NCBI RefSeq assembly: GCF_019645835.1
Contig: NZ_CP080998.1
Span: 1,364,001 to 1,428,000, forward strand
Reading direction: 5' to 3'
Source: Mycolicibacterium holsaticum DSM 44478 = JCM 12374
GTDB lineage: Bacteria; Actinomycetota; Actinomycetes; Mycobacteriales; Mycobacteriaceae
Length of the DNA: 64,000 bases
The notes below the pieces were generated by a model. The model made no database searches. It was not told where the DNA came from and saw only the letters and a program-made list of their open reading frames with translations. Both the position numbers and the translations under genes were made by a program. Below, one piece after another: positions 48,158 through 64,000 of this stretch (its first letter is position 1; each line of letters opens with the position of its first letter).

Positions 48158-48158
48158 G

Positions 48159-48365
48159 TCAGCTGGCCAGTTGGTAGCCGGCGTCTTCGACGGCGCGCCG
48201 GATTGCGACGGGGTCCACCGGGGTATCGCTGTCGATGGTCACCGCACCGCTGGCGACATCGACCGCCACGGCCCTGACACCTGCGATCTCGCCGATCTCC
48301 TCACGGACCGACGCGGCGCAGTGGGCGCAGGTCATCCCGGCGACGGTGATTGTCGTTGTGCTCAT
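48159..48365 (-). CDS. CopZ-like heavy-metal-associated copper chaperone
   Basis: 68 aa from ATG 48365; a longer in-frame extension upstream is an antisense shadow of the deacylase gene. The whole protein is one HMA domain ([27 protein letters not shown]), with Cu-binding Cys13 and Cys16. It would carry Cu(I) in the cytosol to the adjacent ATPase. Its stop is one base before the ATPase ATG, so the two are co-translated. Confidence 0.93.
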
Positions 48366-49205: not shown

Positions 49206-49373
49206 CGCGCCGCGTTGCGTTAGTGGCCCGCGAGGTGGCGGCGGGCCCCAGTTGAACTCTCCTGCGAACTTGTAGCGCCGAGTGGCGACGAGCGCGACAA
49301 ATCCGCGCCAAACCTCACCGTCGGCTCATCAACCAGGGGCGACGGTGCTGTTGTCGGGATCGGTCTCGATCCG

Positions 49374-49403
49374 TTGATTGTTCTCCTGGCGATAAAGTAT
49401 GAT
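49374..49403 (+). promoter_or_regulatory. SigA-type promoter of the synthetase operon
   Basis: TTGATT (49374-49379) and TATGAT (49398-49403) form a -35/-10 pair with an 18-bp spacer. The operator at 49402-49412 overlaps the downstream edge of the -10, which suggests repression by occlusion. The leader to ATG 49531 would be about 120 nt. Confidence 0.55.
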
Positions 49404-49412
49404 GTCGGACAT
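49402..49412. promoter_or_regulatory. Operator site A of the island (ATGTC-G-GACAT)
   Basis: Perfect 5+1+5 palindrome overlapping the -10. Read on the minus strand, 49410-49402 is GTCCGACAT, a 9-mer also found at 61722-61730 and 62567-62575. Confidence 0.6.
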
Positions 49413-49530
49413 TAACCTGTATGCAGGTCTTGGCACCGTGTGCCCTGCACGTATTGGAGAGACCCATGTGCGACTCCGCGCTGATCGGCGATGTCGCGAT
49501 CCCGACCCGCCGGCACGTCGAGGGGCAGCC

Positions 49531-51171
49531 ATGAGCGGTCCCTCCCTCGGCGCTATGACGGTGGGTGAGGCGCTTGCGACGGTGGCGGCTGCCCATCCCG
49601 ATGCGCCGTATGTGACCGCCGGTTCGGCCGAGCTCACCTTCGCCGAACTCTGGTCGAGCAGTGAACGATTGGCCACCGGGTTCGCCGAATTCGGGCTGCG
49701 GAAAGGGGACCATGTCACCACCGCGCTGACCAACCGGATCGAGTGGGTGCTCATCGCGTTTGCTCTTGCTCGGCTGGGTGTGGTCAACGTGCTCGCCAAC
49801 CCCAGGTATCGAACGGGTGAGCTGGCCTACCTGGTCGCACACTCGCAGTCCCGTTGCGTCATCTCCGACGGCGCTCTGGACGCGGAGTTCGAGTCGGCCC
49901 TCGCCGATGAGCGGGCCACGTTGGGCGGACCGGCCGACGTCAACGAGGTAGTACGCATTCGCATCGAAGACGAAGTGGGCCAGCCGGATCCGCAGTGGGA
50001 GGCCCTGGCGGGCGCGCACGCTGACACCGACCTCATTGCCAGCGCGGCCGGACCGCTCAACGCCCAGGATGTGCTCTACATCATCTACACCTCGGGCACC
50101 ACGGGCCGGCCCAAGGGCAGCATGACGCGGCACGGCCCCGCCCTGCAGAACGCGTTCAACAGCGGAGAGCGGATGGGTTTCGACAGCAGCGACCGGCTCC
50201 TGTGCTATCTACCCATGACCCACTGCTTCGGGGCAGTCAACGCACTGCTGAACACCCTCACCCATGGGTGCCGCATCGATCTGCTGAAGGAATTCGATCC
50301 GGGGTTGGTCCTTGATCTGGTCGAGGAGCGCGGGATCACCGCGTTATACGGTGTGCCAACGCATTTCACCATGCTCTGTGCTGCCGCCACGGACGGGCGC
50401 GCCCGGGATCTGCACACCTTGGTCAAAGGCTGTTGCGGCGGTGGAGAGATAACGGAGGAACTGCAGGGCGCGATCGACGACCACCTGGGGATCACGGGAC
50501 TCACCCACGCCTACGGGATGAGCGAGTCGACCGCGCTCATCACCCAGAGTGACCACGCCTGGCCGCGTGAACGTCGCCTTGGGACCGCGGGTTTACCTAT
50601 GCCGGGCGTCGAAGTGCGGATCACCGATTCCGATTCCGGCGTGGAATGTCCGGTCGGCTGCGCGGGCGAGCTCGCGATACGTGGCTTCAACGTTCACGCC
50701 GGATACTTCATGCTCGACCCCGATCCCTCGCTTCGGGCCGACGGTTGGTGGGAGACCGGCGACATCGCAGCGCGTGGACCCGACGGAACAATCACCATCC
50801 GCGGCCGCTCCAAGGACATGTACAAGACCAGCGGGTTCAACGTCTACCCCGTCGAAGTCGAAGCCTGCCTGGTTCGCCATCCTGCGGTCGCCGAGGTGGC
50901 GGTCGTCGGTGTTCCCGACCCGCGCAAGCAGGAAGTCGGTGCCGCCTTCGTCGTACCCACACCAGAAGCTGTCATCGACCCCTCGGAGTTGCAGGCGCTG
51001 GCTCGTACCGAGTTGGTGGGTTACAAGACACCCGAATACATCTTCGTCGTCGATGAGCTTCCGCGTAGCTCGGCCACGCTCAAGGTGCAAAAGCATGTGC
51101 TGCGGGCGCGGGCGCGAAGCCTGCTGGAAACGCCGGACTCCGTCGACACGGCGCGGGTCGGCTCGCCGTGA
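49531..51171 (+). CDS. Acyl-CoA synthetase (AMP-forming)
   Basis: 546 aa from ATG 49531 (MSGPSLGAMTVGEAL) with GAGGGGC upstream. ANL-superfamily ligase: P-loop YTSGTTGRPKG, AYGMSESTALIT, the ATP-binding WWETGDIAARGPDGTITIRGRSKDMYKTSGFNVYPVEVE, and a C-terminal Lys in SATLKVQKHVL. It activates a carboxylic acid to its CoA thioester at the start of the pathway. Sequence looks closer to carnitine/medium-chain ligases than to long-chain FadD enzymes, but the substrate is not predictable. Its TGA overlaps the GTG of the crotonase gene (GTGA). Confidence 0.93.
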   Translation: MSGPSLGAMTVGEALATVAAAHPDAPYVTAGSAELTFAELWSSSERLATGFAEFGLRKGDHVTTALTNRIEWVLIAFALARLGVVNVLANPRYRTGELAYLVAHSQSRCVISDGALDAEFESALADERATLGGPADVNEVVRIRIEDEVGQPDPQWEALAGAHADTDLIASAAGPLNAQDVLYIIYTSGTTGRPKGSMTRHGPALQNAFNSGERMGFDSSDRLLCYLPMTHCFGAVNALLNTLTHGCRIDLLKEFDPGLVLDLVEERGITALYGVPTHFTMLCAAATDGRARDLHTLVKGCCGGGEITEELQGAIDDHLGITGLTHAYGMSESTALITQSDHAWPRERRLGTAGLPMPGVEVRITDSDSGVECPVGCAGELAIRGFNVHAGYFMLDPDPSLRADGWWETGDIAARGPDGTITIRGRSKDMYKTSGFNVYPVEVEACLVRHPAVAEVAVVGVPDPRKQEVGAAFVVPTPEAVIDPSELQALARTELVGYKTPEYIFVVDELPRSSATLKVQKHVLRARARSLLETPDSVDTARVGSP

Positions 51172-52013
51172 CGGGCACAGGATCAGCGACTTCCGGAGCG
51201 GATCTCGTTGTCGAGCAAAAGGATCGGGTGAGGATCCTGACGCTCAGCCGACCCGATACCCACAATGCGATCTCGTTCAAGCTGGCATGTGCGGTAGCCG
51301 AGGCGGTCGAGGCGGCCGGTGCGGACGAGGCAACGCGCGTCGTGGTGATCCGAGGTGCAGGTAGATCCTTCTCGGCGGGATATGACCTCGGCACAGGTTC
51401 GTACGGTTCGCGCTCGGTCGAGGAGAACGCCAAGTACCTCCGCGAGATGTCCAGGCAGTGGGAGCGCGTGTACTACTGCCCGATACCGGTGATTGCACAG
51501 GTGCATGGTTACTGCCTGGCCGGGGGAACCGATCTCGCCGGGCACTGTGACATCACGATGGTGGCCGACGACGCCACCATCGGGTTCCCGGCAGTGCGGT
51601 CCCTGGGGGTGGCGCTCACCCAGATGTGGGTGTACCATGTCGGCCCTCAATGGGCTAAGCGGCTGTTGCTCACCGGCGACACGATGACCGGGAAGCTCGC
51701 TGCCCGTATCGGCTTCGCTCTCGACTCGGTCCCGGCCGCTGATCTCGGCGATGAGGTGATGGCTCTGGCCAGACGGATGTCGATGGTCGAACGGGAAATG
51801 CTGGTCGGCAACAAGCATGTCATCAACCATGGCATCGACCTGATGGGCCGGGAAGCGCTGCAGGACCTGGCCGCGGAACAAGACGCCTTGGCCCATGAGA
51901 CACCTCCGGCGCGTGCGTTTGCCGCGATGATCCACCGCGACGGCCTGCGGGCCGCGCTGCGAGCCCGCGACGAGCCGTTCGGAGACTCCAGACTGGATGT
52001 ACACGGTGAGTGA
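51168..52013 (+). CDS. Enoyl-CoA hydratase/isomerase (crotonase) superfamily protein, atypical active site
   Basis: 281 aa. Crotonase fold with the oxyanion-hole loop VIRGAGRSFSAGYDLG and VIAQVHGYCLAGG. In classical hydratases two catalytic glutamates sit in GGGxE and PE-type motifs; here the first position is Asp122 (AGGTDLAGHCD) and the second Ala142 (GFPAVRSLG). The enzyme is thus unlikely to be a standard hydratase and might be an isomerase, lyase or hydrolase. It is translationally coupled to the synthetase and overlaps the following dehydrogenase gene. Confidence 0.92.
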   Translation: MTGTGSATSGADLVVEQKDRVRILTLSRPDTHNAISFKLACAVAEAVEAAGADEATRVVVIRGAGRSFSAGYDLGTGSYGSRSVEENAKYLREMSRQWERVYYCPIPVIAQVHGYCLAGGTDLAGHCDITMVADDATIGFPAVRSLGVALTQMWVYHVGPQWAKRLLLTGDTMTGKLAARIGFALDSVPAADLGDEVMALARRMSMVEREMLVGNKHVINHGIDLMGREALQDLAAEQDALAHETPPARAFAAMIHRDGLRAALRARDEPFGDSRLDVHGE

Positions 52014-53181
52014 ACCTTTCGACGACTTCCCGGGCTCCGCTGCATGGGATGCCGAGGAGCGAGCGTTCCGCGCGCAGATCCGCCGGCATCTGACCGACAA
52101 CCGCGCGCCGGTGTTCGACCGCTTCGACATGAAGAACTCACTGGTCGAAACATTGGCATGGCATCGGCGGCTGGCCGCGGCGGGATTCCCGTTGCCGGTG
52201 TGCCCGACCGAACTCGGAGGCCGGCCCCGTTCGGTCGCCCTACAACTGGTGCAGGCCGAGGAGATGGCCGCGGTCGGTGCGAACTTCTCGGTCAACATCG
52301 TCGGCATCTCGATGTTGACGCCGCTCCTGCTGGCGTTGGGCAGCCCCGAACAGCAAGCGCGGTGGCTTCCGCCGGTCGGGCGCGGAGAAGAGTTGTGGTG
52401 TCAGCTCTTCAGCGAGCCCGAGGCGGGCTCCGACCTGTTCGGCATGCGAACGACCGCGATCACCGACGGTGTGACCCTGCGGGTCAACGGGCAGAAGATC
52501 TGGAGCAGCACCGCCGAGCACGCCGACTTCGGATTGATGCTCGCCCGCACCGAGCCGGGATCGGCGGGTAAACACGGCATCGGCTGCTTCGTGGTGGACA
52601 TGAAGTCGCCGGGCATAGACGTGCGGCCCATCAAGCAGATCGGCGGTTCGGCGGAGTTCGCCGAGGTGTTCTTCGATGACGTCACCGTCCCGATGACGAA
52701 CGTGATCGGCGCGCCCAACGACGGCGCCACCGCAGCGCTGAGAGTACTTGCTGCCGAACGCAGCGGTCTGACGATGGGAAGCTACGCCGTCTTCGCCGCA
52801 CAGTTCCGCGACGTGGCGCGGCTCTGCGCCCAGCGGGGGACCCGAGGGCACCGCGACGCGTTGGCCAAGCTGTGGGAGGCGTTGGCGGTGCAGCGGCTCA
52901 ACGCCATTCGCCAGGCCAGCGCCGAGACCGAGGAACCGATCCAGTTGTTGGCCCTGGCCGCAGCGGGCAAGCTGCGCAGCGGCGCGCTGTCGGTCATGAT
53001 GCAGGATCTTCGCGCCGAACTGCTCGGCATGTCGGCGGCCGCCATCGATCCGGACGATCATGCCGCGGCATTGGGCGGTGAACGGTTCGTGAGTTCCCTG
53101 GGGCTGAGCCTCGGCGGCGGAACCCATCAGATGCAGCGCAACGCGATCGCCGACGGGCTGCTCAGAATGCCACGTTCCTAG
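51997..53181 (+). CDS. Acyl-CoA dehydrogenase, subunit 1 of a pair
   Basis: 394 aa from ATG 51997; GTG 52006 is an alternative, overlapping the crotonase gene by 8 bp. ACAD fold with WCQLFSEPEAGSDLFGMRTTA and VNGQKIWSSTAEHADFGLMLARTEP (FAD and substrate loops), and the closing GGGTHQMQRNAIADGLL in place of the commoner Arg-Asp-Ala tail. Adjacent FadE pairs in mycobacteria often form alpha2beta2 enzymes in steroid side-chain or branched-chain oxidation, so it likely works with the next gene. Reaction: alpha,beta-desaturation of an acyl-CoA with an ETF acceptor. Confidence 0.93.
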   Translation: MYTVSEPFDDFPGSAAWDAEERAFRAQIRRHLTDNRAPVFDRFDMKNSLVETLAWHRRLAAAGFPLPVCPTELGGRPRSVALQLVQAEEMAAVGANFSVNIVGISMLTPLLLALGSPEQQARWLPPVGRGEELWCQLFSEPEAGSDLFGMRTTAITDGVTLRVNGQKIWSSTAEHADFGLMLARTEPGSAGKHGIGCFVVDMKSPGIDVRPIKQIGGSAEFAEVFFDDVTVPMTNVIGAPNDGATAALRVLAAERSGLTMGSYAVFAAQFRDVARLCAQRGTRGHRDALAKLWEALAVQRLNAIRQASAETEEPIQLLALAAAGKLRSGALSVMMQDLRAELLGMSAAAIDPDDHAAALGGERFVSSLGLSLGGGTHQMQRNAIADGLLRMPRS

Positions 53182-53217
53182 CGACGACCGCGGGGTCGCC
53201 GACGATCGGAGGATGAC

Positions 53218-54363
53218 ATGCGTCTGCGTTTCAGCGAAGAACAGCAGGACCTACGGCGCGCGGTGCGCGATTTGTTCGCGAGCTGCGCCACAGAGTCTGA
53301 GGTTCGTCGCCTCATGGACACCCCGGAAGGCTGGGATCGCGCCATCTGGTCGCAGATAGCCGCGATGGGGCTGATCAGCCTCGCGATCCCGGAGACCTTC
53401 GGCGGTGACGGCGGCGGCTGGGACGACGTCGGCGTGGTATTGGAGGAAGCCGGACGGTCGCTGTTGTGCGCCCCGTACTTCTCGACCGTCATGCTGGGAG
53501 TCAACACCTTGTTGGCATCCAACGACCCAGCAGCACAACGCGATTACCTTCCGGACATCGCGGCAGGGGAGTTGACCGCGACATTGGCGGTGCTCGAGGA
53601 TACCGGCCGGTGGGATGAGGACGCGGTGGCCCTCCGCGCGACACCCACTTCGACTGGATACCGCGTCGACGGCCACAAGTCCTACGTTATCGACGGCGCG
53701 ACGGCCGGCGTTGTCTTCGTTGTCGGACGAACGGCTAAGGGTCTCAGCCTGTTTGCCGTCGAGCGCGGTGCGCCCGGACTGCGCTGTACAGCGTTGGAGA
53801 CGGTGGATCTGACCCGCAAACAGGCAAGGCTGGAGTTTGCCGATACGCCGGCGCGGCTGCTCGGCGACGAGGGGGCCGGCTGGGCCCTGGTCAGGCGGAT
53901 CATCGATCGTGCGGCGATCGGGTTGGCCGCCGAGCAAGTCGGCGGCGCCCAACAAGCCTTGGACATGGCGGTGTCGTATGCGAAGGTGCGTCACCAATTC
54001 GGCCGTCCTATCGGATCATTCCAGGCGATCAAACACGCCTGTGCCGACATGCTGGTCGAAGTCGAATCCGCCCGCAGTGTCGCGTACTACGGTCTGCTGG
54101 CCGCAGCGGAACCCGACAGCGACCTGTCGCTGATCGCAGGCCTGGCCAAGGCGCACTGTTCGGATGCCTACGCCCACGTGGCATCGCAGTGCATCCTGGT
54201 GCACGGTGCCATCGGCTACACCTGGGAGCATGCAGCGCAGCTGCACTTCAAGCGTGCGAAGACCGGTCAACTCATGTTCGGCACGCCGACGGCTCATCGG
54301 GAGGCGCTGGCGGATCGGTTGTGCCCGGCAGGACGTCCTGTTGAGACTCTTGACATACATTAG
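53218..54363 (+). CDS. Acyl-CoA dehydrogenase, subunit 2 of a pair
   Basis: 381 aa with GGAGGA ahead of ATG 53218. N-terminal helical domain (MRLRFSEEQQDLRRAVRDLFA), weakly conserved middle barrel (TATLAVLEDTGRWDEDAVALRA) and a well-conserved C-terminal domain: RHQFGRPIGSFQAIKHACADM and VHGAIGYTWEHAAQLHFKRAK, the latter with a Glu near the catalytic base position. The weaker FAD loop and strong C-terminal motifs fit the complementary subunit of heteromeric ACADs. It ends the four-gene operon; an operator overlaps its stop codon. Confidence 0.93.
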   Translation: MRLRFSEEQQDLRRAVRDLFASCATESEVRRLMDTPEGWDRAIWSQIAAMGLISLAIPETFGGDGGGWDDVGVVLEEAGRSLLCAPYFSTVMLGVNTLLASNDPAAQRDYLPDIAAGELTATLAVLEDTGRWDEDAVALRATPTSTGYRVDGHKSYVIDGATAGVVFVVGRTAKGLSLFAVERGAPGLRCTALETVDLTRKQARLEFADTPARLLGDEGAGWALVRRIIDRAAIGLAAEQVGGAQQALDMAVSYAKVRHQFGRPIGSFQAIKHACADMLVEVESARSVAYYGLLAAAEPDSDLSLIAGLAKAHCSDAYAHVASQCILVHGAIGYTWEHAAQLHFKRAKTGQLMFGTPTAHREALADRLCPAGRPVETLDIH

Positions 54364-54365
54364 TC

Positions 54366-54387
54366 AATAGTCAATTGTTGGACTATT
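54366..54387. promoter_or_regulatory. Operator site E (AATAGTC-N8-GACTATT)
   Basis: Perfect 7-bp arms with an 8-bp spacer; a tandem TAGTCAA-TAGTCAA run begins at 54361. It begins 2 bp after the dehydrogenase stop and lies about 30 bp before the kinase-family gene, and shares the GTC-N8-GAC spacing with sites C and D. Confidence 0.6.
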
Positions 54388-54418
54388 AGCTGCAACACAC
54401 CGCACCGACGGGGGACAC

Positions 54419-55468
54419 ATGGCTGCACCGGTGGAGGCTGATGTCGAACGGGCCGCGCTATTGGCGGGATGGCTTGCCGAGGCGCTGTCGACGGGCCCAC
54501 TGGAAGTCGTCGACTACGCGCGGTCCGCGGGCGGTTACAGCAATGACACCTTCATCCTGACCGTCAAGGAAGTCGGTGCGAACTCGCCGCGACGATTCGT
54601 ATTCCGCTGGGCGCCAGATGTTCCGATCTTCCTCGACTACGACATCCTGGCTCAAGCGCGGACAATGCGCGGACTGGCCGCCGGGAATCTCCCGGTGCCC
54701 GACGTGGTCGGTGTCGAAGACGATCCCACGTTGATCGGAAAGCCGTTTTACGCCATGAGTTATGTCGAGGGACGATTTCCACCCGACACGCCGCCGGGAC
54801 CGCACGGACACGGCCTGTTTTTCGAGTCCACACCCGCTGAGCGACGACGCATGCACGACCAGGTGATCGGCGCGATGGCCGAGTTGCACCGTATCGATTG
54901 GCGCTCACTTGACCTGCCGGATCTGGGCTCTCCTGATTCGGGATTGGCGGCCCTCGACGCGCAGATTCAGTACTGGGAGGACATGCTTGCCTGGGCGACC
55001 GACGAACCGATGCCGTTGATGGGTAAGGCTTTCGATTGGGTCAAAGATCATCGCTATGAACCCAGCAGGCTGAGCCTGTGCTGGGGCGATGCGCATCACG
55101 GCAACGTGCTCTATCACGACGGCGAACTGTCCGCGGTGCTGGACTGGGAGATGGCCCATATCGGACCGCCCGAGGCCGACATCGCCTGGATGCTGGCCTG
55201 TGACCATATCCACGTGGATTCCCATGGCTTTCCGCGCCTCCCCGGACTTCCCGACGACGACGAGGTGTTCGCCCACTACGCCGAGGTTTCCGGACATCCG
55301 ATCGAAAACCGGCAGTTCCACGAAGTGTTCGGCGCGCTGCGTTGCGCGATCACCGTCGCGCAGAGCGCCCGCAAGTTCAAACTGCTAGGCATCCAAGGTT
55401 GGCCCCAGGACATGGCCAGCAACAATCCCGCGATTCGGCTTCTCGCTGAGGTGCTGGCCGCCGAATAG
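54419..55468 (+). CDS. APH-fold phosphotransferase (ACAD10/11-, LvaA-type acyl-CoA-associated kinase)
   Basis: 349 aa. Protein-kinase-like fold: FRWAPDVPIFLDYDILAQARTMRGL, AMSYVEGRF, and the catalytic loop LSLCWGDAHHGNVLYHDG (Asp and Asn) followed by metal-binding VLDWEMAHIGPPEADIAWML. This subgroup of APH proteins accompanies acyl-CoA dehydrogenases. Related kinases phosphorylate hydroxyacyl-CoAs, preparing elimination by an ACAD-like partner (LvaA and human ACAD10/11). Substrate here is inferred to be a hydroxyacyl-CoA intermediate. Operator site E lies before it and the gene leads the two RDH-motif genes. Confidence 0.9.
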   Translation: MAAPVEADVERAALLAGWLAEALSTGPLEVVDYARSAGGYSNDTFILTVKEVGANSPRRFVFRWAPDVPIFLDYDILAQARTMRGLAAGNLPVPDVVGVEDDPTLIGKPFYAMSYVEGRFPPDTPPGPHGHGLFFESTPAERRRMHDQVIGAMAELHRIDWRSLDLPDLGSPDSGLAALDAQIQYWEDMLAWATDEPMPLMGKAFDWVKDHRYEPSRLSLCWGDAHHGNVLYHDGELSAVLDWEMAHIGPPEADIAWMLACDHIHVDSHGFPRLPGLPDDDEVFAHYAEVSGHPIENRQFHEVFGALRCAITVAQSARKFKLLGIQGWPQDMASNNPAIRLLAEVLAAE

Positions 55469-55528
55469 GTGCTCAGTTCGACCGGCTGAAGTGCACTGCT
55501 GACCGGCAATCTGACATTGGAGCAGATC

Positions 55529-56443
55529 ATGCTTGCTGACAACGACGAGTTCCTGCACACCCCGGATGCCTCACCGATCTGGCAGGAGAACTACTTCTTC
55601 GTCGGACGCGACGATTCCACCGACACCGTTGTCTACCTGCATCTGGAACGGATGCCCAGCCGCAACGAGGTCGAGGCGAAGGCCTTCGTCGAGGTGGCCG
55701 GCAACAGATGTTCGGCGGTTGTTGCTCACCACGGCGACGACTGTTTCGACATACCGGGGGTAAGCGTTGCCGTGGAACAACCGTTCCGCCGGTGGCGCGT
55801 GGCGGTGAACCTGGCCGGAGAAGACGACGGACCTGGCGGTTGGGCTGCCGAAAGAACGGATGGGCCAACGCGGTTCGGGTTCGACCTCGAGGTCACCTCG
55901 ACACTGGCGCCGACCGATTGGGGACCTGCGGCGGCCGCGCTGGGTAGACCGGACGTCATCCTCGATCACTACGAGGTGCCGTGTGTCTGGTCGGGCACGG
56001 TCTGGTGCGGCGACTCTCAGGTGTCGGCCACCGGACTGCTGGTGCGCGACCACAGCTGGGGCCCCCGCGATCTTGCGACGTTCGATCTGGCGTTCTGGAC
56101 ACCGATGGTGTTCGCCGATGCCACGATGTTCATCAGCGCGGTGACGATGCTGGTCGGTGGCCGCCACGTCGGCTTCACCTTCATCGACACCGGTTCGGGC
56201 GCAGTTCTTTTCGAGCAGCCCTGGGTCCGCGTGGCCGGCTTCCCCGAACGCAGGGGTTACGGTTCGGCATCGTGGCGGTGCCTCGGAGCCGACCGCGAAG
56301 AACGCGTGGAGATCGATGTCGCCAGCCACGTACCCGTCCGCTACCCCCGGATGGGCGATGGCCACTACTTCAACGACGCGCTCGGCGTGGCGACGTGGGG
56401 CGCCCATCAGGGCCTGGGAATCATCGAACTCAACCGGCACTGA
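55529..56443 (+). CDS. RDHSWGPR-motif protein A (hypothetical, DUF7064/7065-like)
   Basis: 304 aa from ATG 55529, with GGAG at 55519-55522 six bases upstream. No domain of known function is recognised. The N-terminal half (WQENYFFVGRDDSTDTVVYLHLERMP) and the RDHSWGPR motif (173-180) recur in the next gene. Many short beta-like segments, no signal peptide and no strong membrane helix suggest a soluble beta-rich protein, perhaps of the lipocalin-like AttH/CrtC type. It lies between the kinase gene and its paralogue. Confidence 0.82.
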   Translation: MLADNDEFLHTPDASPIWQENYFFVGRDDSTDTVVYLHLERMPSRNEVEAKAFVEVAGNRCSAVVAHHGDDCFDIPGVSVAVEQPFRRWRVAVNLAGEDDGPGGWAAERTDGPTRFGFDLEVTSTLAPTDWGPAAAALGRPDVILDHYEVPCVWSGTVWCGDSQVSATGLLVRDHSWGPRDLATFDLAFWTPMVFADATMFISAVTMLVGGRHVGFTFIDTGSGAVLFEQPWVRVAGFPERRGYGSASWRCLGADREERVEIDVASHVPVRYPRMGDGHYFNDALGVATWGAHQGLGIIELNRH

Positions 56444-56491
56444 GGCAAAGGACCGCCTGCGGCGTGACGCGCACACAAGGAGACCGGGCAC

Positions 56492-57496: not shown

Positions 57497-57572
57497 GCGC
57501 ACGGATGTCCGCCCCCAACGGGGAGTACACCATTTTCTATGCCGAAGGACCATTAGGTGTTAGCATGTCGAA

Positions 57573-57588
57573 TGTCTGGTATTAGACA
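57573..57588. promoter_or_regulatory. Operator site D (TGTCT-N6-AGACA) before the membrane micro-protein genes
   Basis: Perfect 5-bp arms, equivalent to GTC-N8-GAC as in sites C and E, in the 133-bp gap after protein B. It is 41 bp before the first micro-protein ATG. Confidence 0.58.
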
Positions 57589-57629
57589 GTTAGGTCTGGC
57601 GAACTAGGACCATCGGAAAGGGGAGCACC

Positions 57630-57764
57630 ATGTCGAGGTCCTACGAAAACCGCAGGCGGCGTCGAGGGGTTTTGGCCTTCCTCGGCGGTTATCTGGGTTT
57701 CATGCTCACGGTCATCGCGTTGCAGGCCGTACACAGCAACCAGTTGGGTTATGGCCTGTTCTGA
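57630..57764 (+). CDS. 44-aa single-helix membrane micro-protein
   Basis: A basic start (MSRSYENRRRRRG) precedes one helix, VLAFLGGYLGFMLTVIALQAV, and a short polar end. GGGGAG lies before ATG 57630. The positive-inside rule places the N-terminus in the cytosol. With two more micro-proteins and a larger membrane protein in tight array it looks like a subunit of a membrane complex. Too short for homology judgement. Confidence 0.72.
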   Translation: MSRSYENRRRRRGVLAFLGGYLGFMLTVIALQAVHSNQLGYGLF

Positions 57765-57777
57765 AAGGACGTTTCGA

Positions 57778-57894
57778 ATGAACAACGCTTATCTGCCATT
57801 GCGGGACATCCTGTGGTACGGCCTGATGGTCGGCGCGGACGTCCTCATCTTCATGTTCTGGTGGTTCGTGATGAGCCGCCTTGGCGATCGCTAA
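57778..57894 (+). CDS. 38-aa single-helix membrane micro-protein
   Basis: Begins 14 bp after the preceding stop with AAAGGA upstream of ATG 57778. The chain is MNNAYLPLRDILWYG followed by a helix through MVGADVLIFMFWWFVM and an RLGDR tail, rich in Trp and Met. Likely a membrane-complex subunit; function unknown. Confidence 0.72.
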   Translation: MNNAYLPLRDILWYGLMVGADVLIFMFWWFVMSRLGDR

Positions 57895-57911
57895 CGAGTG
57901 GGGACAACGAT

Positions 57912-58097
57912 ATGACCGAACCGACGAAGGAACCCGCCGCCGCATCCGTCGACGACGAGCACCGTTGGGCCGACCTCGACCCCCTGGTCAAGTTCGGCGT
58001 CGTGCTGGCCGCGCTTCTGTTCACCGGCGTCATCATTGAGGGTGCTTCGCTGGTCCCCTATGCCCTGATCCAAAACGGCTGGACGCCAGGAAGATAA
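57912..58097 (+). CDS. 61-aa single-helix membrane protein
   Basis: ATG 57912 follows the previous stop by 17 bp. An acidic soluble lead (EPAAASVDDEHRWADLDP) precedes one helix, LVKFGVVLAALLFTGVIIEGASLV, and a short tail ending NGWTPGR. Spaced and oriented as a member of the same operon. Confidence 0.75.
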   Translation: MTEPTKEPAAASVDDEHRWADLDPLVKFGVVLAALLFTGVIIEGASLVPYALIQNGWTPGR

Positions 58098-58110
58098 CGG
58101 AGGACAGGGT

Positions 58111-58830
58111 ATGTCGACATCACTTGAACCGGCGCGCGCGGACTCTGCCGAAGACTTTGACGTACAAGCTGGACGGATACGGCGGGCGGAGAAGTGGTTC
58201 TTCGCCGGTGTCATCATCACTGGCTCGATTCTGGTGGGCCCCTTGGGCTTACCCGTACTGGCCTACGGTGTCTACCAGCTGTGGAAGATATCCAAGGAGG
58301 GACGCCACGCCGTCCGGCCCTGGCACGTGTCGGTGATCGGGGCGTTCGCCATCATCGATGCGGCAGCCAACTTCGTCGGGTGGTCATTTTGCACCTTCGC
58401 GGCTCGAACCGGCGTTTCCTGGTCGATTCTGCGGGACGGTTACGGGTTCGGATTCGACGGCTTCTACTACGCCGATTACGGAAGCAGCTTCCTGATCAAC
58501 GGTGTCGCAGGGCCGGGTGAACAGTCCTACATCTTCATGGCGATGTTCGTCCTCTGGCCGATGCGGCTGTGCGCAGCGTGGGCGTTCCTGAAGATGAAGC
58601 GGTGGGGTTTCCGGTGGATGATCACCACTACCTGGATGCTCGTGCTGTTCTGGGTGGGCTGGACGACCAACGGACTGATTCACTTCGATGAGCGTTTCGG
58701 TGCAGCCGGAGGCGACCCCGCGTTCGGGTTCCTGGGCTGGTGGATTTTCAACAGCATGTACATCCTCGGCCCCATCGTGATGGTTCCGTACCTCTACACG
58801 GTGAACAAGGAGCTGTGGAGCGAGGAGTGA
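58111..58830 (+). CDS. 239-aa multi-pass membrane protein of the micro-protein operon
   Basis: ATG 58111 has GGAGG about 10 bp upstream and follows the 61-aa gene by 13 bp. About five to six helices are visible: WFFAGVIITGSILVGPLGLPVLA, PWHVSVIGAFAIIDAAANFVGW, SYIFMAMFVLWPMRLCAAWAFL, WMITTTWMLVLFWVGWTTNGL and GWWIFNSMYILGPIVMVPYLY. A Tyr/Phe/Gly-rich loop (GYGFGFDGFYYADYGSSFLI) lies between. There is weak resemblance in size and topology to AveC-like membrane cyclase-family proteins, not enough to assign. Function unknown. Confidence 0.85.
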   Translation: MSTSLEPARADSAEDFDVQAGRIRRAEKWFFAGVIITGSILVGPLGLPVLAYGVYQLWKISKEGRHAVRPWHVSVIGAFAIIDAAANFVGWSFCTFAARTGVSWSILRDGYGFGFDGFYYADYGSSFLINGVAGPGEQSYIFMAMFVLWPMRLCAAWAFLKMKRWGFRWMITTTWMLVLFWVGWTTNGLIHFDERFGAAGGDPAFGFLGWWIFNSMYILGPIVMVPYLYTVNKELWSEE

Positions 58831-58892
58831 GGGAATTCCAGCCGTCGGCTCCGGGGGAGGAGCCGGCGGCTGGACGCATCCCAAGGGGTCGG

Positions 58893-59651
58893 CTACGGGG
58901 AGTGCGCCTCGAGCGGCGTCACGCCTTGGGCCAGTAGACCGCCGTCCACCGGCAGGACATGGCCGGTGATGAAGCTCGCGTCATCGGAGATCAGGAACCG
59001 GATGGCGGCGGCAACCTCGTCGACGGAGCCGGCACGGCCCAACGGCGTACTACGCCTGACGCTTTCGATGAACCGTGGTGGAGCGTTCGCCACCAGCCGG
59101 GTGTCGATCACGCCGGGTGCCACGACGTTGACCCGCACTCCTGCGCGGGCATACTCGATGGCGGCCTGTCGGGCCAGGCTGATCACTGCACCCTTCGACG
59201 CCACATAGGCGGCCAGGCCGGTGGTGCCCCCGATCGCGGTGGCCGAGGACGTACAGACGATAGCGCCCCCACCGGCGTTGATCATGGCCGGCAACACGGC
59301 CCGCATGCCCAACCAGGTCCCCGTGCAGTTGACCGCGTGAAGGCGCTCCCACTCGGGTAGGCCGATCTCGAGGACGGTGTCGCGCTCTCGGGCGACCACG
59401 CCGTGCACGAGGGCCAACCCGTCGATCCGGCCCACCCGGTCCACCAGCGCGGTCCACGCCTCGGCGTCGCGCACGTCCATGGCGTGTCCGACCAGCAGTC
59501 CATCTCCAGGATCTTCGGCTGCGGTGTCGGTCGCGGCCGCGATGTCGACCACATGGGTCAGGGCGCCCCGACGGGCGAAGGTGAGCGCGGTAGCGCGGCC
59601 GATACCTGACCCGCCACCGGTCACGATCACCGTCTTGCGCCGCAGGCTCAC
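58893..59651 (-). CDS. Short-chain dehydrogenase/reductase of the island
   Basis: 252 aa from GTG 59651 (SLRRKTVIVTGGG...), because the upstream in-frame extension overlaps the carboxylase end and lacks SDR character. Motifs: TGGGSGIGRATALTF, the active site SSATAIGGTTGLAAYVASKGA (Ser, Tyr, Lys) and the C-terminal SDEVAAAIRFLISDDASFITGHVLPVDGG-type closing block. Oxidises a hydroxyl or reduces a ketone on a pathway intermediate, probably as an acyl-CoA. It is 43 bp downstream of the carboxylase gene and co-directional. Confidence 0.92.
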   Translation of the reverse strand: MSLRRKTVIVTGGGSGIGRATALTFARRGALTHVVDIAAATDTAAEDPGDGLLVGHAMDVRDAEAWTALVDRVGRIDGLALVHGVVARERDTVLEIGLPEWERLHAVNCTGTWLGMRAVLPAMINAGGGAIVCTSSATAIGGTTGLAAYVASKGAVISLARQAAIEYARAGVRVNVVAPGVIDTRLVANAPPRFIESVRRSTPLGRAGSVDEVAAAIRFLISDDASFITGHVLPVDGGLLAQGVTPLEAHSP

Positions 59652-59694
59652 CGGCTCGCGCCGTCGAGCGTCGGTGTGTCCCTGCTCATTCCGG

Positions 59695-61683
59695 TCAATT
59701 CCCGGCTTCGTCGAGGTCGTCTTCGAGCACCACGAGTACCTCCCCGGCATCCACCTGGTCGCCGGGCGACACCTTCACAGCGACGACAGTGGCCGGCCCG
59801 GCTGCGGTGATGGTGTGCTCCATCTTCATCGCCTCCAGCACCACAAGCGAATCGCCCTTGGCCACCCGGGAACCCACCTCCACGCCCACTCGGATGGCGG
59901 TGCCGGGCATCGGTGCCACCAGGGAACCGGCTTCGACCCGAGACTCCGGTTCGGCGAAGCGATTCCGCACGGACAGCGGCAACACCGCCTCCGGGCCACT
60001 GACATAGAGGCGCTCCGGGGTGAACTCGACAACCAACCGGCGGCGCACCCCGTCCAGGGAGATGTCGACCAGCTCGGGCGAACTGTGGTGGATAGACACG
60101 TTCGGTGTCGTGCCGTCCAGTTCGATGTCATATCCGTTGTGGCGCGTCAGGATCCGCGTCGAGTGCGTGGTATCGCCGTCGTCGAGCAGCACTTCCTGCG
60201 GGATCGACGGGGTCGACCGGAAGCCGGCCGGTATGCTGCGCAGCACCGTCGCGGTGGCGCGACCTCGTTCGACCACGGCGAGCGCGGCGGCAACGATATA
60301 AGCCGGGTGTGCCGCTGCCACTTCCCGACGTCCCTGCTTGACCAGGTCGGTGGGCGAGTGTTCGGACAGGAACGCCGTGGTGGTCTCGCCGCGACAGTAG
60401 GCGGGATGCCGCAGGACCCCGACCAGCAAGTCGCGGTTGGAAGTGACACCGTCCACGCAGGCATGCTGGAGGGCTGCGGCGAGAGCCGCGGCGGCCTCCG
60501 CGCGGGAGTCACGGTGGGCGATGACCTTGGCCAGCAGCGGGTCGTAGTGGATGGACACCTCCGATCCGGTGCCGACCCCGGTATCCACCCGGATGCCGGG
60601 CCGATCCGGAATGGTGAACCGGGCAAGCGTTCCCGACGCCGGCAAGAACCCGGCCGCGACGTCCTCGGCGTAGAGCCGGGCCTCGATCGCATGCCCGACG
60701 ATGTGAATGTCGGCCAATTCCCGGGGTAACGGTTCACCGGCGGCCACGATTAGTTGTAGGCGAACGAGGTCGAGACCGGTGGTGAGTTCGGTGACCGGAT
60801 GTTCGACCTGCAGGCGGGTGTTCATCTCCAGGAAATAGAAGCCGCCGTCGGTATCCAACAGGAACTCGACGGTGCCGGCCCCGACGTAGTCGATGGCCTT
60901 GGCGGCGGCGACCGCGGCGGCGCCCATGGCCTCGCGCAGCGGTGGGTCCACCGCGGGCGACGGGGCCTCCTCGAGAACCTTCTGATAGCGCCGCTGTATC
61001 GAGCATTCGCGTTCCCCGAGGTGGAAAACCTGACCGTGCTCGTCGCCGAAGACCTGAACCTCGATATGCCTGGCGCCGAGCAGATAACGCTCCAAGAACA
61101 CCGTGTCGTCGCCGAATGCTGCGCGCGCTTCGCGGCGACAGGCAGCGACGTGTTCGACAAGGGTGGTCTCGTCGTGCACCAGCCGCATGGCCTTTCCGCC
61201 CCCGCCGGCGCTCGCCTTGACCAAGAGTGGATAGCCGACGGTCTGGGCCGCTGCCACCACGTCATCGGACGGCGCAAGCTCGGCCGACGGCAGGAGGGGA
61301 ACCCCGGCGTCAGCCATCGTCCGCTTGGCCTCGGTCTTGGATCCCATTCGACGGATGGCCTCCGGGGATGGGCCGATCATCGTGATCCCCGCATCCGCGC
61401 AGCATTGCGCGAACGAAGCGTTCTCGGCCAGGAAACCGTAGCCGGGGTGGATGGCGTCGGCTTCGGTACGCCGAGCGGCCTCGATCACCCGCTCGATGTC
61501 GAGATAGCTCTCGGAGGGGGTGCTGCCGGCCAGGTGCACGGCGACGTCGGCGTCGCGGACGTGAAGCGCGTCCGCGTCGGCATCGGAGTACACGGCCGCG
61601 ACCCCGACGCCGAGTTCACGACACGTCCGGGTGATACGGCGGGCGATCTCGCCCCGGTTGGCGATTAGCACGCGCTGGAACAC
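59695..61683 (-). CDS. Biotin carboxylase/BCCP alpha subunit of an acyl-CoA carboxylase
   Basis: 662 aa. The ATP-grasp biotin carboxylase domain runs from RVLIANRGEIARRI to about residue 450, with KASAGGGGKAMRLV, EERQHVE-type blocks (GARHIEVQVFGDEHG) and MNTRLQVEHPVTE. A spacer follows, and a C-terminal BCCP domain carries the biotinyl Lys in VVLEAMKMEHTITA. It fits methylcrotonyl-, geranyl- or acetyl/propionyl-type alpha subunits of similar length. It should pair with the carboxyltransferase at 62630-64000, encoded divergently past the TIGR03084-like gene. Confidence 0.94.
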   Translation of the reverse strand: MFQRVLIANRGEIARRITRTCRELGVGVAAVYSDADADALHVRDADVAVHLAGSTPSESYLDIERVIEAARRTEADAIHPGYGFLAENASFAQCCADAGITMIGPSPEAIRRMGSKTEAKRTMADAGVPLLPSAELAPSDDVVAAAQTVGYPLLVKASAGGGGKAMRLVHDETTLVEHVAACRREARAAFGDDTVFLERYLLGARHIEVQVFGDEHGQVFHLGERECSIQRRYQKVLEEAPSPAVDPPLREAMGAAAVAAAKAIDYVGAGTVEFLLDTDGGFYFLEMNTRLQVEHPVTELTTGLDLVRLQLIVAAGEPLPRELADIHIVGHAIEARLYAEDVAAGFLPASGTLARFTIPDRPGIRVDTGVGTGSEVSIHYDPLLAKVIAHRDSRAEAAAALAAALQHACVDGVTSNRDLLVGVLRHPAYCRGETTTAFLSEHSPTDLVKQGRREVAAAHPAYIVAAALAVVERGRATATVLRSIPAGFRSTPSIPQEVLLDDGDTTHSTRILTRHNGYDIELDGTTPNVSIHHSSPELVDISLDGVRRRLVVEFTPERLYVSGPEAVLPLSVRNRFAEPESRVEAGSLVAPMPGTAIRVGVEVGSRVAKGDSLVVLEAMKMEHTITAAGPATVVAVKVSPGDQVDAGEVLVVLEDDLDEAGN

Positions 61684-61721
61684 GGGATCCTCTCGACGAA
61701 CGACGACATGCGATGAGCATA

Positions 61722-61730
61722 ATGTCGGAC
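61722..61730. promoter_or_regulatory. Operator site B (GTCCGACAT on minus strand)
   Basis: In AATGTCGGACAGTT, 39 bp before the carboxylase GTG. The minus-strand 9-mer equals that at sites A and C; full palindromy is lost by one base per arm. It lies in the 66-bp gap between the carboxylase and TIGR03084-like genes. Confidence 0.55.
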
Positions 61731-61749
61731 AGTTGAAATCATGCCGATA

Positions 61750-62544
61750 CTAGCCCACTAATCCGTGTGGGCGCCCGGGGCCGGGGGCGCCGGCGTAGGC
61801 CTGGGCGATTGCCATCCAGTCGGCGGCGTGCACCCCCTCGGTCCGTAGCGCGGTGTCCAGTACGTGGCGGCGCTGGGTGACGACCAGGCAGAAGTCGAGC
61901 GCCGCTCCGACAACCCGCTCGGGGGCGTCGCTGGAACCCCACGCCCAGGTGTCGCCGTCGGGGCTGGTGAGCGCCACCCGCACCTCGTGTTCGGGCGCTG
62001 GACGGTTGCGAAGCCGATAGCTCCACTCGCGAGTGGCGACGCCCAGATGTGCGATATGTCGCAGCCTGGCCGTCGGCGTCCGTTCGACTTTGACCACGTC
62101 GGCGATGTCTTGTCCGTGCGCCCACGTTTCCATCAGCCGGGCCGACATCATCGAGGTGGCGCTCATCGAGGGTCCGAACCAGGGAATACGTTTACCGGGA
62201 GCCAGCCCGTCGATCGCCGTCAGAAGCCGCCGAGACGCCTCCCGCCAGCGTGTCCGCAGGGCGGCCGGTGACAGCCGGCGTCCCTGCTCCAAGCCGGCGA
62301 GGACGGCTGGCTCGAAATCACCGTCGAGAGCGTCGCGCCACTGGATGTAGCCGTCCGGGTCGAGCGCGGCCTGCGCGGCGACCGTCTCCGACCACGCCAG
62401 ATGTGCGAGTTGATCGATGATCGCCCATCCTTCGGCGGGGGTGGGCGCGTCCCATTGGTCCGGCCCGACGGCTGCCAATGTGTGTTCCAGGTCGTCGTAC
62501 TCGGCGGCCAGATCGGCGCGGAGCTGGTTCGTCAGGGTGGACAA
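61750..62544 (-). CDS. TIGR03084-like family protein (DinB/MDMPI-type metal-binding fold)
   Basis: 264 aa from TTG 62544, which follows AGGAGG by nine bases; an upstream in-frame extension to 62631 is not needed. An N-terminal four-helix region has WAIIDQLAHLAWSETVAAQAAL and METWAHGQDIADVV, the histidines expected of the DinB/mycothiol-dependent metal site, followed by a C-terminal SCP2-like part (GDTWAWGSSDAPERVVGAALDFCLVVTQRRH). This family often accompanies acyl-CoA carboxylase genes in actinobacteria. Its reaction is unknown. Confidence 0.88.
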   Translation of the reverse strand: MSTLTNQLRADLAAEYDDLEHTLAAVGPDQWDAPTPAEGWAIIDQLAHLAWSETVAAQAALDPDGYIQWRDALDGDFEPAVLAGLEQGRRLSPAALRTRWREASRRLLTAIDGLAPGKRIPWFGPSMSATSMMSARLMETWAHGQDIADVVKVERTPTARLRHIAHLGVATREWSYRLRNRPAPEHEVRVALTSPDGDTWAWGSSDAPERVVGAALDFCLVVTQRRHVLDTALRTEGVHAADWMAIAQAYAGAPGPGRPHGLVG

Positions 62545-62561
62545 AGTATCGCGCCTCCTGG

Positions 62562-62585
62562 GTATAGTCCGACATTGGACAATAC
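62562..62585. promoter_or_regulatory. Operator site C in the divergent carboxylase promoter
   Basis: GTATAGTCC and GGACAATAC flank GACATT; arms match at 8 of 9 positions. It holds the core GTCCGACAT (62567-62575) and GTC-N8-GAC. TATAGT (62563-62568), a possible -10 for the carboxyltransferase with TGGACA at 62538-62543, lies inside it, so one repressor could control both divergent genes. Confidence 0.65.
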
Positions 62586-62629
62586 CCGTCCTCGGGTTGT
62601 TCGTCAGTCGAACTCGGCATAGGAGGCTC

Positions 62630-64000
62630 ATGCAGCGGCTCAGAACGTCGGTCGATCAGGGGGCGAGCGCTTACGTCGACAACCGGCAGGAGATGGAGCG
62701 CGCGCTGGCCGAGGTCCAGGCGCACGTGGGACAGGCGCTCGGTGGTGGTGGCCAGAAGTATGTGGACCGGCACCGCGAACGAGGGCGGTTGTTACCCAGG
62801 GAGCGGATCGAACTGCTCGTCGACATCGGCAGCCCGATGATCGAACTGTCGCCGCTGGCCGCTGTCGGGACCGGTTTTCCGACCGGTGGCAGCGTGGTGA
62901 CCGCGATCGGTGTCGTCGAGGGTGCGGAGTGCATGCTGATCGCCAGTGATCCCACCGTGCGGGGCGGGGCGATCAATCCCATATCGGTGACCAAGATCCT
63001 GCGGGCCATGGACATCGCCCGGGAGAACCGGTTGCCACTGTTGTTTCTTGTCGAGTCCGGCGGCGCGGACCTGCCCAGCCAGGGTGAGTTCTACCTGCGG
63101 GGCGGCAACCAGTTCCGGCACCTCACGCAGATGTCGGCGATGGGGGTGCCCACCGTCGCGCTGGTGTTCGGCAATGCCACCGCCGGTGGCGCCTACGTGC
63201 CCGGCATGTGCGACTACACGATCCTGATCAAGGACCAGAGCAAGGTGTTCCTGGGCGGGCCGCCGCTGGTGAAGATGGCCACCGGGGAGGAGTCCGATGA
63301 CGAGACTCTCGGTGGTGCCGAGATGCACGCCCGCGACTCGGGGCTGTGCGACTATCTTGCCGACGACGAGGTGGACTGCATTCGGCTTGCCAGACAGATC
63401 ATTTCGCATCTGGGCTGGCGCAAGCTCGGTCCGGAGCCGGGTCCCGTTGTCGAGCCGCTGGAGGATGCCGGGGACCTGCTCGGCATCGCCTCGGCAGATC
63501 CGAAGGTGCCCTTCGATATCCGCGAACTTCTCGCGCGGATCGTGGATGGCAGCGAGTTCGACGAATTCAAGCCCTACTACGGCCAGGCATTGCTGACTGG
63601 GTGGGCGCGAATTCACGGATATCTGGTCGGGATTCTGGCCAACAAACAGGGCGTCCTGTTCAACGAAGAGTCCGAGAAAGCCGCGCAGTTCATTCAATTG
63701 GCGAACCAGATGGATCAGCCGTTGATCTTCATCCACAACTGCACCGGGTTCATGGTCGGCGCCGAGTACGAGAAGCGGGGCATCGTCAAGGACGGGGCGA
63801 AACTGATCAACGCGGTGGCCAACAGCACGGTGCCGCATATCGCCCTGATGGCCGGTGCGTCCTACGGCGCGGGCAACTACGGTATGTCGGGCCGGCCGTT
63901 CAACCCGCGGTTCGCCTTCTCCTGGCCGACGGCGCGGGTGGCCGTGATGGGCGGAACACAACTGGCCGGCGTGCTCTCGATCGTCGCGCGCCAATCCGCG
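62630..64000 (+). CDS. Acyl-CoA carboxylase carboxyltransferase beta subunit (3' end outside window)
   Basis: 457 codons are open to the right edge without a stop, so the C-terminus lies outside. ATG 62630 has AGGAGG four bases upstream. CT-type crotonase fold: a lead helix (QKYVDRHRERGRLLPRERIELLVD), the acyl-CoA site ESGGADLPSQ, GNATAGGAYVPGMCDYT and ASYGAGNYGMSGRPFNPRF near the end. It transfers CO2 from biotin to the acyl-CoA with the alpha subunit at 59695. The sequence resembles methylcrotonyl/geranyl-CoA carboxylase beta subunits more than propionyl-CoA types, a judgement from motifs only. Confidence 0.93.
   Translation, partial: MQRLRTSVDQGASAYVDNRQEMERALAEVQAHVGQALGGGGQKYVDRHRERGRLLPRERIELLVDIGSPMIELSPLAAVGTGFPTGGSVVTAIGVVEGAECMLIASDPTVRGGAINPISVTKILRAMDIARENRLPLLFLVESGGADLPSQGEFYLRGGNQFRHLTQMSAMGVPTVALVFGNATAGGAYVPGMCDYTILIKDQSKVFLGGPPLVKMATGEESDDETLGGAEMHARDSGLCDYLADDEVDCIRLARQIISHLGWRKLGPEPGPVVEPLEDAGDLLGIASADPKVPFDIRELLARIVDGSEFDEFKPYYGQALLTGWARIHGYLVGILANKQGVLFNEESEKAAQFIQLANQMDQPLIFIHNCTGFMVGAEYEKRGIVKDGAKLINAVANSTVPHIALMAGASYGAGNYGMSGRPFNPRFAFSWPTARVAVMGGTQLAGVLSIVARQSA

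Follow-up and report, generated by a model that had tools for sequence, protein, structure and literature searches.

A mobile catabolic island in Mycolicibacterium holsaticum with a geranyl-CoA-carboxylase-like enzyme and a possible kinase/phospholyase module

The stretch of DNA analyzed here (the window) comprises 64,000 nucleotides of the chromosome of Mycolicibacterium holsaticum DSM 44478 (G000:C1 1364001-1428000 in our genome set), and its edge at 64000 splits a catabolic island. With coordinates above 64000 continuing the window along the same chromosome, the island spans ~57 kb from 49207 to ~106165 (G000:C1 1413207-1470165) and holds 51 genes by gene calling. The first of these are FACL1, ECH1, ACADa, ACADb, APH, DUF7064a, DUF7064b, a gene for a small protein and MP on the plus strand, then SDR1, BC and TIGR03084 on the minus strand, and CT. 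Thus, the window genes form more than one transcription unit (49531-58830, plus; 58893-62544, minus; CT, plus again). Beyond CT lie CaiB1, ACADc, SnoaL, LLM1, LLM2, FACL2, CaiB2, FadR1, RibBA, HSL1, LLM3, VWA and MoxR, followed by eight yrbE/mce genes (79041-88205), a P450 gene, SDR2, a gene for a Baeyer-Villiger monooxygenase (BVMO), HSL2, ACADs, ECH2, HCDH1 and HCDH2, and finally by ACADd, ECH3, SDR3, ECH4, FadR2, SDR4, LLM4, AtuA and PTP. The short gene names are our own; most family assignments have been verified against Pfam or NCBIfam, that of SDR4 on part of its sequence. Because the calls come from a codon-usage script, gene starts are approximate, and those of LLM4 and AtuA are probably further upstream. 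A sequence-only reading of the window had listed a synthetase, a crotonase, two acyl-CoA dehydrogenases (ACADs), an APH kinase, a short-chain dehydrogenase/reductase (SDR), a biotin-dependent carboxylase, a membrane module and two unknown soluble proteins, and Pfam and NCBIfam recover all of these gene types. Of the two soluble proteins, DUF7064b scores above the family cut-off and DUF7064a matches DUF7064/DUF7065 only below it. The carboxylase beta-subunit gene, as that reading supposed, passes the window edge.

The island was acquired horizontally and is mobile, occurring as one block at separate positions in the chromosomes of two mycobacteria, because its site is empty in all five relatives compared (L103-L107) and a second copy lies elsewhere in a genome whose flanking gene pair is intact. 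Specifically, blastn of the flanks against the five relatives shows that the left match ends at 49206 at the latest and the right match resumes at 106166 at the earliest, and that the two flanks are only 15-72 bp apart in those genomes. The two flanking genes, one dtd-like and one for a molybdopterin-type oxidoreductase (both named by eye from sequence), are ~58 kb apart in the window's genome. In two listings that cover 98 genomes, read by eye with a criterion of within 4 kb, 12 of the other 97 have the pair 1.2-3.9 kb apart on one contig; the remainder lack a close match to the second gene, or have the pair on separate contigs or far apart. GC content in 4-kb bins differs by a small amount, being 62.5-66.7% inside the island (bins starting 52001-100001) and 65.6-71.3% outside. 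No exact direct repeat of 10 to 30 bases was found between two 450-base stretches at the island ends, and we saw no integrase or transposase in the gene calls. Just beyond the left border, at 45959-48365, are genes for a copper P-type ATPase and a CopZ-like chaperone.

The genome with the second copy (G394) was picked as the only one of 395 others searched that has a close AtuA (83% identity; the next best are 57-58%). There, the flanking pair is ~1.8 kb apart and the island lies ~0.54 Mb away, at 4.32-4.36 Mb. Over the 90 kb compared, 35 of the 51 genes are kept in the same order at 68-94% identity, among them FACL1, ECH1, the ACAD pair, the membrane module, BC and CT, and one extra ACAD-like gene is found between LLM4 and AtuA (27-28% identical to ACADc and ACADd). 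The other 16 genes (APH, DUF7064a, DUF7064b, SDR1, TIGR03084, CaiB1, ACADc, SnoaL and the eight mce genes) have no orthologs in the G394 island and fall at five insertion points. Therefore, the island comprises a core, which includes the ligase, the ACAD pair, the membrane module, the carboxylase, the oxygenases and AtuA, and optional accessory parts, which include the kinase, the soluble proteins and the importer (Table 1). The earlier view of a CoA-dependent catabolic island with Atu-type carboxylation holds, given the AtuA gene and the carboxylase signature described below, whereas the proposal of one co-conserved pathway is not supported, given the absence of APH, both DUF7064 genes, SDR1 and TIGR03084 from the G394 island. 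These absences at five insertion points, together with the strand changes that divide the gene list, are also what one might expect of a patchwork of two or more independent pathways whose accessory genes are unrelated to the core. We consider a patchwork rather unlikely, because APH, DUF7064, the same type of mce operon and ACADa/b-like genes occur together within 40 kb in another genome (G567), and because the arrangement APH-DUF7064-ligase-ACAD-ACAD recurs in M. branderi.

Table 1. Window features of the island, with the basis for each assignment and its standing in the comparison with G394 (percent identity)
Feature	Coordinates	Strand	Basis	Standing
Window part of ~57-kb mobile island	49207..64000	.	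Flank matches to empty-site relatives; GC bins	
FACL1, AMP-forming acyl-CoA ligase	49531..51171	+	PF00501 E=6.5e-82; PF13193	Core, 79%
ECH1, crotonase-family	51168..52013	+	PF00378 E=8.8e-37; NF006128 266 bits (cut-off 257)	Core, 84%
ACADa, alpha-type subunit of probable heteromeric acyl-CoA dehydrogenase	51997..53181	+	PDB matches	Core, 83%
ACADb, probable partner subunit	53218..54363	+	PDB matches	Core, 86%
APH-family kinase, possible (tertiary) alcohol kinase	54419..55468	+	PF01636 E=2.9e-30	Accessory
DUF7064a, possible phospholyase-type protein	55529..56443	+	Sub-threshold DUF7065/DUF7064 matches; RDHSWGPR motif	Accessory
DUF7064b, probable double-lipocalin protein, phospholyase type	56492..57496	+	DUF7064 39.1 bits (cut-off 24.7)	Accessory
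61-amino-acid protein before MP	57912..58097	+	One hydrophobic stretch by eye; no Pfam match	Core, 70%
MP, multi-helix membrane protein	58111..58830	+	No Pfam match	Core, 86%
SDR1	58893..59651	-	Pfam	Accessory, no G394 island ortholog
BC, biotin carboxylase/biotin carboxyl carrier protein alpha subunit	59695..61683	-	NCBIfam	Core, 84%
TIGR03084 family protein	61750..62544	-	315 bits (cut-off 248)	Accessory
CT, geranyl-CoA-carboxylase-like carboxyltransferase beta subunit	62630..64000 (ends 64228)	+	PF01039 E=6.4e-120	Core, 93%

In the available part of PMC4673880, the beta subunit of methylcrotonyl-CoA carboxylase (MCC) is described as having Phe191 after a three-residue insertion, that of geranyl-CoA carboxylase (GCC) as having a glycine and no insertion, and that of propionyl-CoA carboxylase (PCC) as lacking the long N-terminal helix. 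The island CT lacks the three-residue insertion and has a glycine at the MCC Phe191 position (Gly162 in our own numbering), as seen in an ungapped alignment to GCC (PDB 5ikl) that sets Gly over Gly, and GCC 5ikl is the best PDB match over this 91-residue segment. The N-terminus is extended, with alignments starting at query residue 4 for MCC 3u9r, at 6 for GCC 5ikl and at 21-35 for fourteen low-scoring PCC-group rows, although this criterion carries the caveat that the AccD1 4q0g alignment likewise starts only at residue 21. From these features, CT and BC are likely to carboxylate the gamma carbon of a beta-methyl enoyl-CoA that exceeds methylcrotonyl-CoA in size.

Full-length comparison gives a different ranking. 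Over 456 CT residues, the highest scores belong to enzymes named PCC and MCC beta, and GCC 5ikl comes sixth, after five PCC, MCC, AccD1 and plain carboxyl transferase proteins, as might be expected if an ordinary leucine- or propionyl-type carboxylase simply sat beside unrelated genes. We regard such an arrangement as extremely improbable and have ruled it out on the CT signature despite this ranking. The MCC phenylalanine and insertion are missing from the island CT and present in L043, a CT paralog of the same genome; the scores of typical PCC beta chains are much poorer (E about 1e-67 vs 1e-135); and CT is 93% conserved inside an island shared with G394. On sequence, CT is not the ordinary propionyl/acetyl-CoA enzyme that the sequence-only reading had named as a refutation.

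The same reading had recommended a search past 64000 for AtuA, hydroxymethylglutaryl (HMG)-CoA lyase and TetR genes. AtuA is indeed in the island, ~40 kb past the window edge (PF07287 E=2.9e-127, with AtuA_ferredoxin). No TetR gene was seen among the genes scanned, and the island regulators observed are of the FadR/GntR type (FadR1 and FadR2). AtuA is not confined to islands of this kind, as matches with E<=1e-30 occur in 388 of the 396 genus genomes. In the window's genome, an AccD2-like operon (G000:C1 ~1.007-1.015 Mb), which we take to correspond to Rv0971c-Rv0976c of M. tuberculosis, has an adjoining AtuA paralog (G000:C1 1013602-1015248). The CT, BC and AtuA of this operon are 62%, 50% and 56% identical to those of the island, and its CT has the same signature. 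The operon is genus-wide, as judged by AtuA, whereas the island copy sits in a full catabolic context. The island holds a diverged copy of the AtuA-carboxylase module within a fuller pathway. In the available part of PMC4347857 (2015), an AccD2-AccA2 deletion in M. smegmatis is reported to give wild-type growth on isovalerate, and the role of these proteins is called an open question.

The two adjacent core genes ACADa and ACADb might be taken to encode two desaturation steps. We have set aside two independent steps, since the proteins match partner chains of the same PDB entries and are therefore read as one heteromer. Specifically, 4x28_A ranks second and 6wy8_B (Tcur3483) fourth among the matches of ACADa, whereas those of ACADb are headed by 6wy8_A (Tcur3481; E=2.9e-41), with 4x28_D at rank 8; the best NCBIfam match of ACADb, IpdE2, is below its cut-off. 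Entry 4x28 is presumably ChsE4-ChsE5, and we take both entries to have a role in steroid degradation. In the island, as in these systems, two ACAD genes are neighbors; their products pair with different chains of both entries but are divergent in sequence. Thus, ACADa and ACADb are likely to form one alpha/beta enzyme. Most ACADs read YEGT at the site of the catalytic glutamate; ACADd (96804-97997 continued; L078:14804-15997) reads YDGT, and its usual catalytic Glu may be Asp.

Among the oxygenases, the BVMO (gene at 90744, continued) has its best matches to phenylacetone (PAMO) and steroid (STMO) monooxygenases at E about 1e-57. Type I enzymes carry the fingerprints FxGxxxHxxxW and [AG]GxWxxxx[FY]P[GM]xxxD, and both are present here as FAGPSWHSARW and GGAWWTNTYPGCRVD, which makes Baeyer-Villiger oxidation by this enzyme likely. 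LLM3 is nearest to luciferase-type monooxygenases, and the P450 has no single clear relative. The RibBA gene (72976-74199 continued; L008:9976-11199; 86% identical to G394) lies amid flavoenzyme genes and perhaps contributes to flavin supply. When compared with plasmids, BVMO and LLM3 gave only matches below 60%. Distant relatives of BVMO, LLM3 and DUF7064 occur together on plasmids of Sphingobium sp. Tom, among them AP027315, on which those of BVMO and LLM3 are ~110 kb apart.

The membrane protein MP appears to be part of a recurring MP-VWA-MoxR module, as its paralogs adjoin VWA/MoxR genes in 28 of 29 paralog loci. In the island, the VWA match falls below the Pfam cut-off (20.2 vs 23.8 bits), and MoxR combines an AAA_5 domain with a C-terminus of CbbQ/NorQ type. 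The structure model of MP is poor, with a weak likeness to EXPERA (EBP/TMEM97). A large protein database has 12 clusters with orthologs of 59-87% identity over nearly the whole length. Among named GTDB r220 genomes, none of 24 pattern-matching stretches encodes a relative, and G394 (MP 86%) was also unrecovered, such that this genome is either absent from that set or was missed; on this basis the island seems rare. At another locus of the window's genome (L040, G000:C1 1602001-1622000), two MP paralogs surround VWA and MoxR genes, with TetR regulators, P450s and DapB-like proteins as neighbors by eye. MlaE, MlaD or Mce4_CUP1 domains are present in the five genes scanned of the eight in the mce operon, in which MceB, MceD and MceE were named from operon position and tblastn to G567.

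On balance, we favor, with moderate confidence, the view that this horizontally acquired block of ~57 kb serves to degrade a large cyclic isoprenoid, terpenoid or steroid-like, and a labdane- or sterol-like compound is a plausible substrate. In the proposed pathway, the P450, SDRs, type I BVMO, luciferase-type flavoenzymes and two esterases would open the skeleton, ligases would form CoA esters, and an alpha/beta ACAD tolerant of bulky acyl groups would desaturate them. If beta-oxidation is blocked by a beta-methyl substituent, the GCC-like enzyme would carboxylate that methyl (the gamma carbon), and AtuA and crotonase would then lead to carbon-carbon cleavage; to our knowledge, the activity of AtuA itself is unproven. 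The HCDH, ECH and ACAD genes would complete degradation. In this strain, an accessory module would add a Mce importer, for which uptake of the substrate is a plausible role, and a kinase with two DUF7064-type proteins, which may convert a tertiary or otherwise unreactive alcohol to an alkene through phosphorylation and loss of the phosphate.

Several points weigh against this proposal, beginning with the full-length CT ranking given above. Glycine without the insertion is also common to two other CT paralogs of the genome, AccD2-like L041 and L042, one of them in the genus-wide AtuA operon, so that these residues are no proof of a terpene substrate. The HMG-CoA-lyase family (PF00682) is found at four places in the genome, none within the island, and no thiolase was seen in the island. 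In Pseudomonas, an HMG-CoA-lyase-type lyase may also sit outside the Atu cluster. Finally, the assignment to the steroid/terpenoid class draws on several weak, indirect similarities.

Could the island instead be an Atu pathway for citronellol or geraniol, transplanted into a mycobacterium? Acyclic-terpene utilization (Atu/Liu) in Pseudomonas involves the gene set AtuA-H and geranyl-CoA carboxylase, and the island shares with it an AtuA family protein, a GCC-type beta subunit, a ligase, a crotonase and ACADs. However, it is much larger, with a P450, a BVMO, luciferase-like enzymes, esterases, paired ACADs and Mce proteins, and it has FadR-type regulators and no HMG-CoA lyase gene inside. A transplanted acyclic-terpene pathway is unlikely, because acyclic monoterpenes have no expected need for a P450, a BVMO, four luciferase-like proteins and two esterases, all of which are kept in order in G394, nor for a Mce importer, and because ACADa/b resemble partner chains of heteromers with a presumed steroid role. 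Searches of the literature, mostly without subscription papers, returned no title on this island (including a search for Mycobacterium with AtuA, BVMO and mce) or on DUF7064/7065 chemistry.

The accessory kinase carries the APH motifs WGDxxxxN and LDWE, and its best PDB matches are 3ats (E=7e-40) and 9fsg (E=6e-36), followed at a distance by ACAD11 (2e-11). The codes 9fsg, 9ft5 and 9fu5 were absent from the literature searched, and 9fsg is at most a candidate for 25-hydroxysteroid kinase (25-HSK). The match to ACAD11, and the presence of APH, ACAD, SDR and ligase genes together, bring to mind the 4-hydroxy-acid pathways of LvaABCDE and ACAD10/11, in which APH would phosphorylate a 4-hydroxyacyl-CoA and ACAD would remove the phosphate. 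This mechanism is very improbable for the island. An HCMR motif is described as essential in such ACADs in the available part of PMC12440821, and we have ruled the mechanism out because that motif is found in none of the five island ACADs. In addition, the kinase is far nearer to 3ats and 9fsg than to ACAD11, and the G394 island lacks APH and retains four of the five ACADs.

The two soluble proteins are related to each other (BLASTP E=3e-6), and DUF7064/DUF7065-type proteins are distantly related to the NCBI Rv3169 family. In the 395 other genus genomes no DUF7064b match exceeds 41%, and a search of named GTDB r220 genomes for DUF7064 gave three loci. A structure model of DUF7064b (pLDDT 94.8) returns 25-phosphosteroid lyase (25-PSL) in all of the top five Foldseek rows. 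In the motif R-D-H-[ST]-x-G-x-R, the R, D, H, G and R residues are invariant in 17 of 17 aligned family sequences, and the motif aligns with GSRDRSWGVR of 25-PSL (R-D-R-S-W-G-V-R) to give the shared pattern R-D-[HR]-[ST]-x-G-x-R. The product-bound entry 9g4c has N in place of the motif D, which we take as a sign that this Asp has a catalytic role.

Relatives of these proteins are often encoded near APH genes. APH is no more than 10 kb from a DUF7064-type gene in six of ten loci of 15-40 kb, when ~3% would be expected per locus from ~9 APH matches per 5.6 Mb (P=8e-8, computed for six of nine loci without G567). The ten are the best DUF7064b matches (L074, L076 and L077; L075 was dropped as the same place as L108), all three GTDB r220 loci (L108-L110), three of 15 plasmid records chosen before their neighbors were known (L111-L113) and a G567 stretch chosen for its adjoining mce operon, where APH is at 15 kb and was not counted as positive. 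With so few loci, some of them related and some chosen by hand, the figure is only a guide, and two of the six APH matches are weak (23-24% identity, L108 and L112). Direct adjacency is seen in a M. branderi plasmid (TetR-APH-DUF7064/65-ligase-ACAD-ACAD, by Pfam) and in Mycobacterium sp. E1747 (DUF7064-DUF7064-APH). In G567 (L118/L119, C1 4890001-4930000), a DUF7064 gene lies between yrbEB and mceA of a mce operon that is 59-74% identical to that of the island, with APH and ACADa/b-like genes within the same 40 kb. In the window's genome, the other DUF7064-type gene (3328038) is not close to any of the nine APH places. The M. avium plasmid pP7a (L111) encodes three DUF7065 proteins, each beside a gene annotated as a PEP (phosphoenolpyruvate)-utilising enzyme, and the same stretch holds APH and an ecdysteroid-kinase-like gene, perhaps as a multi-kinase dehydration cluster.

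Other data caution against a firm phospholyase assignment. AttH, Diels-Alderases and kievitone hydratase share the DUF7064b fold at tied or close Z, such that a hydratase or cyclase is possible. A profile of the 17 family members finds only 25-PSL in the PDB up to E=1, and finds it weakly (E=0.058 and 0.74). Furthermore, no APH match occurs in any of 29 short DUF7064 loci (about +-1.5 kb), and adjacency is therefore not general. Nevertheless, the 25-PSL fold, the RDH[ST] motif and the frequent, if not invariable, proximity of relatives to APH make dehydration of a tertiary or otherwise unreactive alcohol by a kinase/phospholyase pair plausible.

A close parallel to the kinase and lyase-like genes is the 25-HSK/25-PSL system of Sterolibacterium denitrificans, for which ATP-dependent dehydration of a tertiary alcohol is proposed, as it is here. 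Both have a phosphotransferase-family kinase and a protein of 25-PSL fold with the R-D-[HR]-[ST] motif. In the available part of PMC8449060, 25-HSK is described as similar to actinobacterial phosphotransferases (<=46%), the lyase gene was not then known, and no lyase candidate was close to the kinase gene, whereas the kinase and lyase-like genes of the island are adjacent. The island also differs in having two lyase-like genes, in an identity of ~15% to the lyase, and in its mycobacterial host. More broadly, we suggest tentatively, and as something a little short of probable, that DUF7064/DUF7065-type proteins act as phospholyases alongside partners of the APH, ecdysteroid-kinase or PEP-utiliser type in a widespread mycobacterial route for oxygen-independent, ATP-driven dehydration of tertiary or unreactive terpenoid and steroid alcohols.

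The island presents what appears to be a whole degradation pathway as one block that occupies differing sites in two chromosomes and in which the importer and putative dehydration genes are optional. If our interpretation is correct, a rare carboxylation step would be paired with removal of stubborn hydroxyl groups by a kinase plus a lyase. It would also provide a testable chemistry for AccD2-type carboxylases with AtuA, whose role was still described as open in 2015 in the available part of PMC4347857, and a kinase-paired phospholyase role for the uncharacterized DUF7064/7065-type proteins. If the latter are indeed phospholyases, then in G567 a lyase-like gene would sit inside the very mce operon that would import the substrate.

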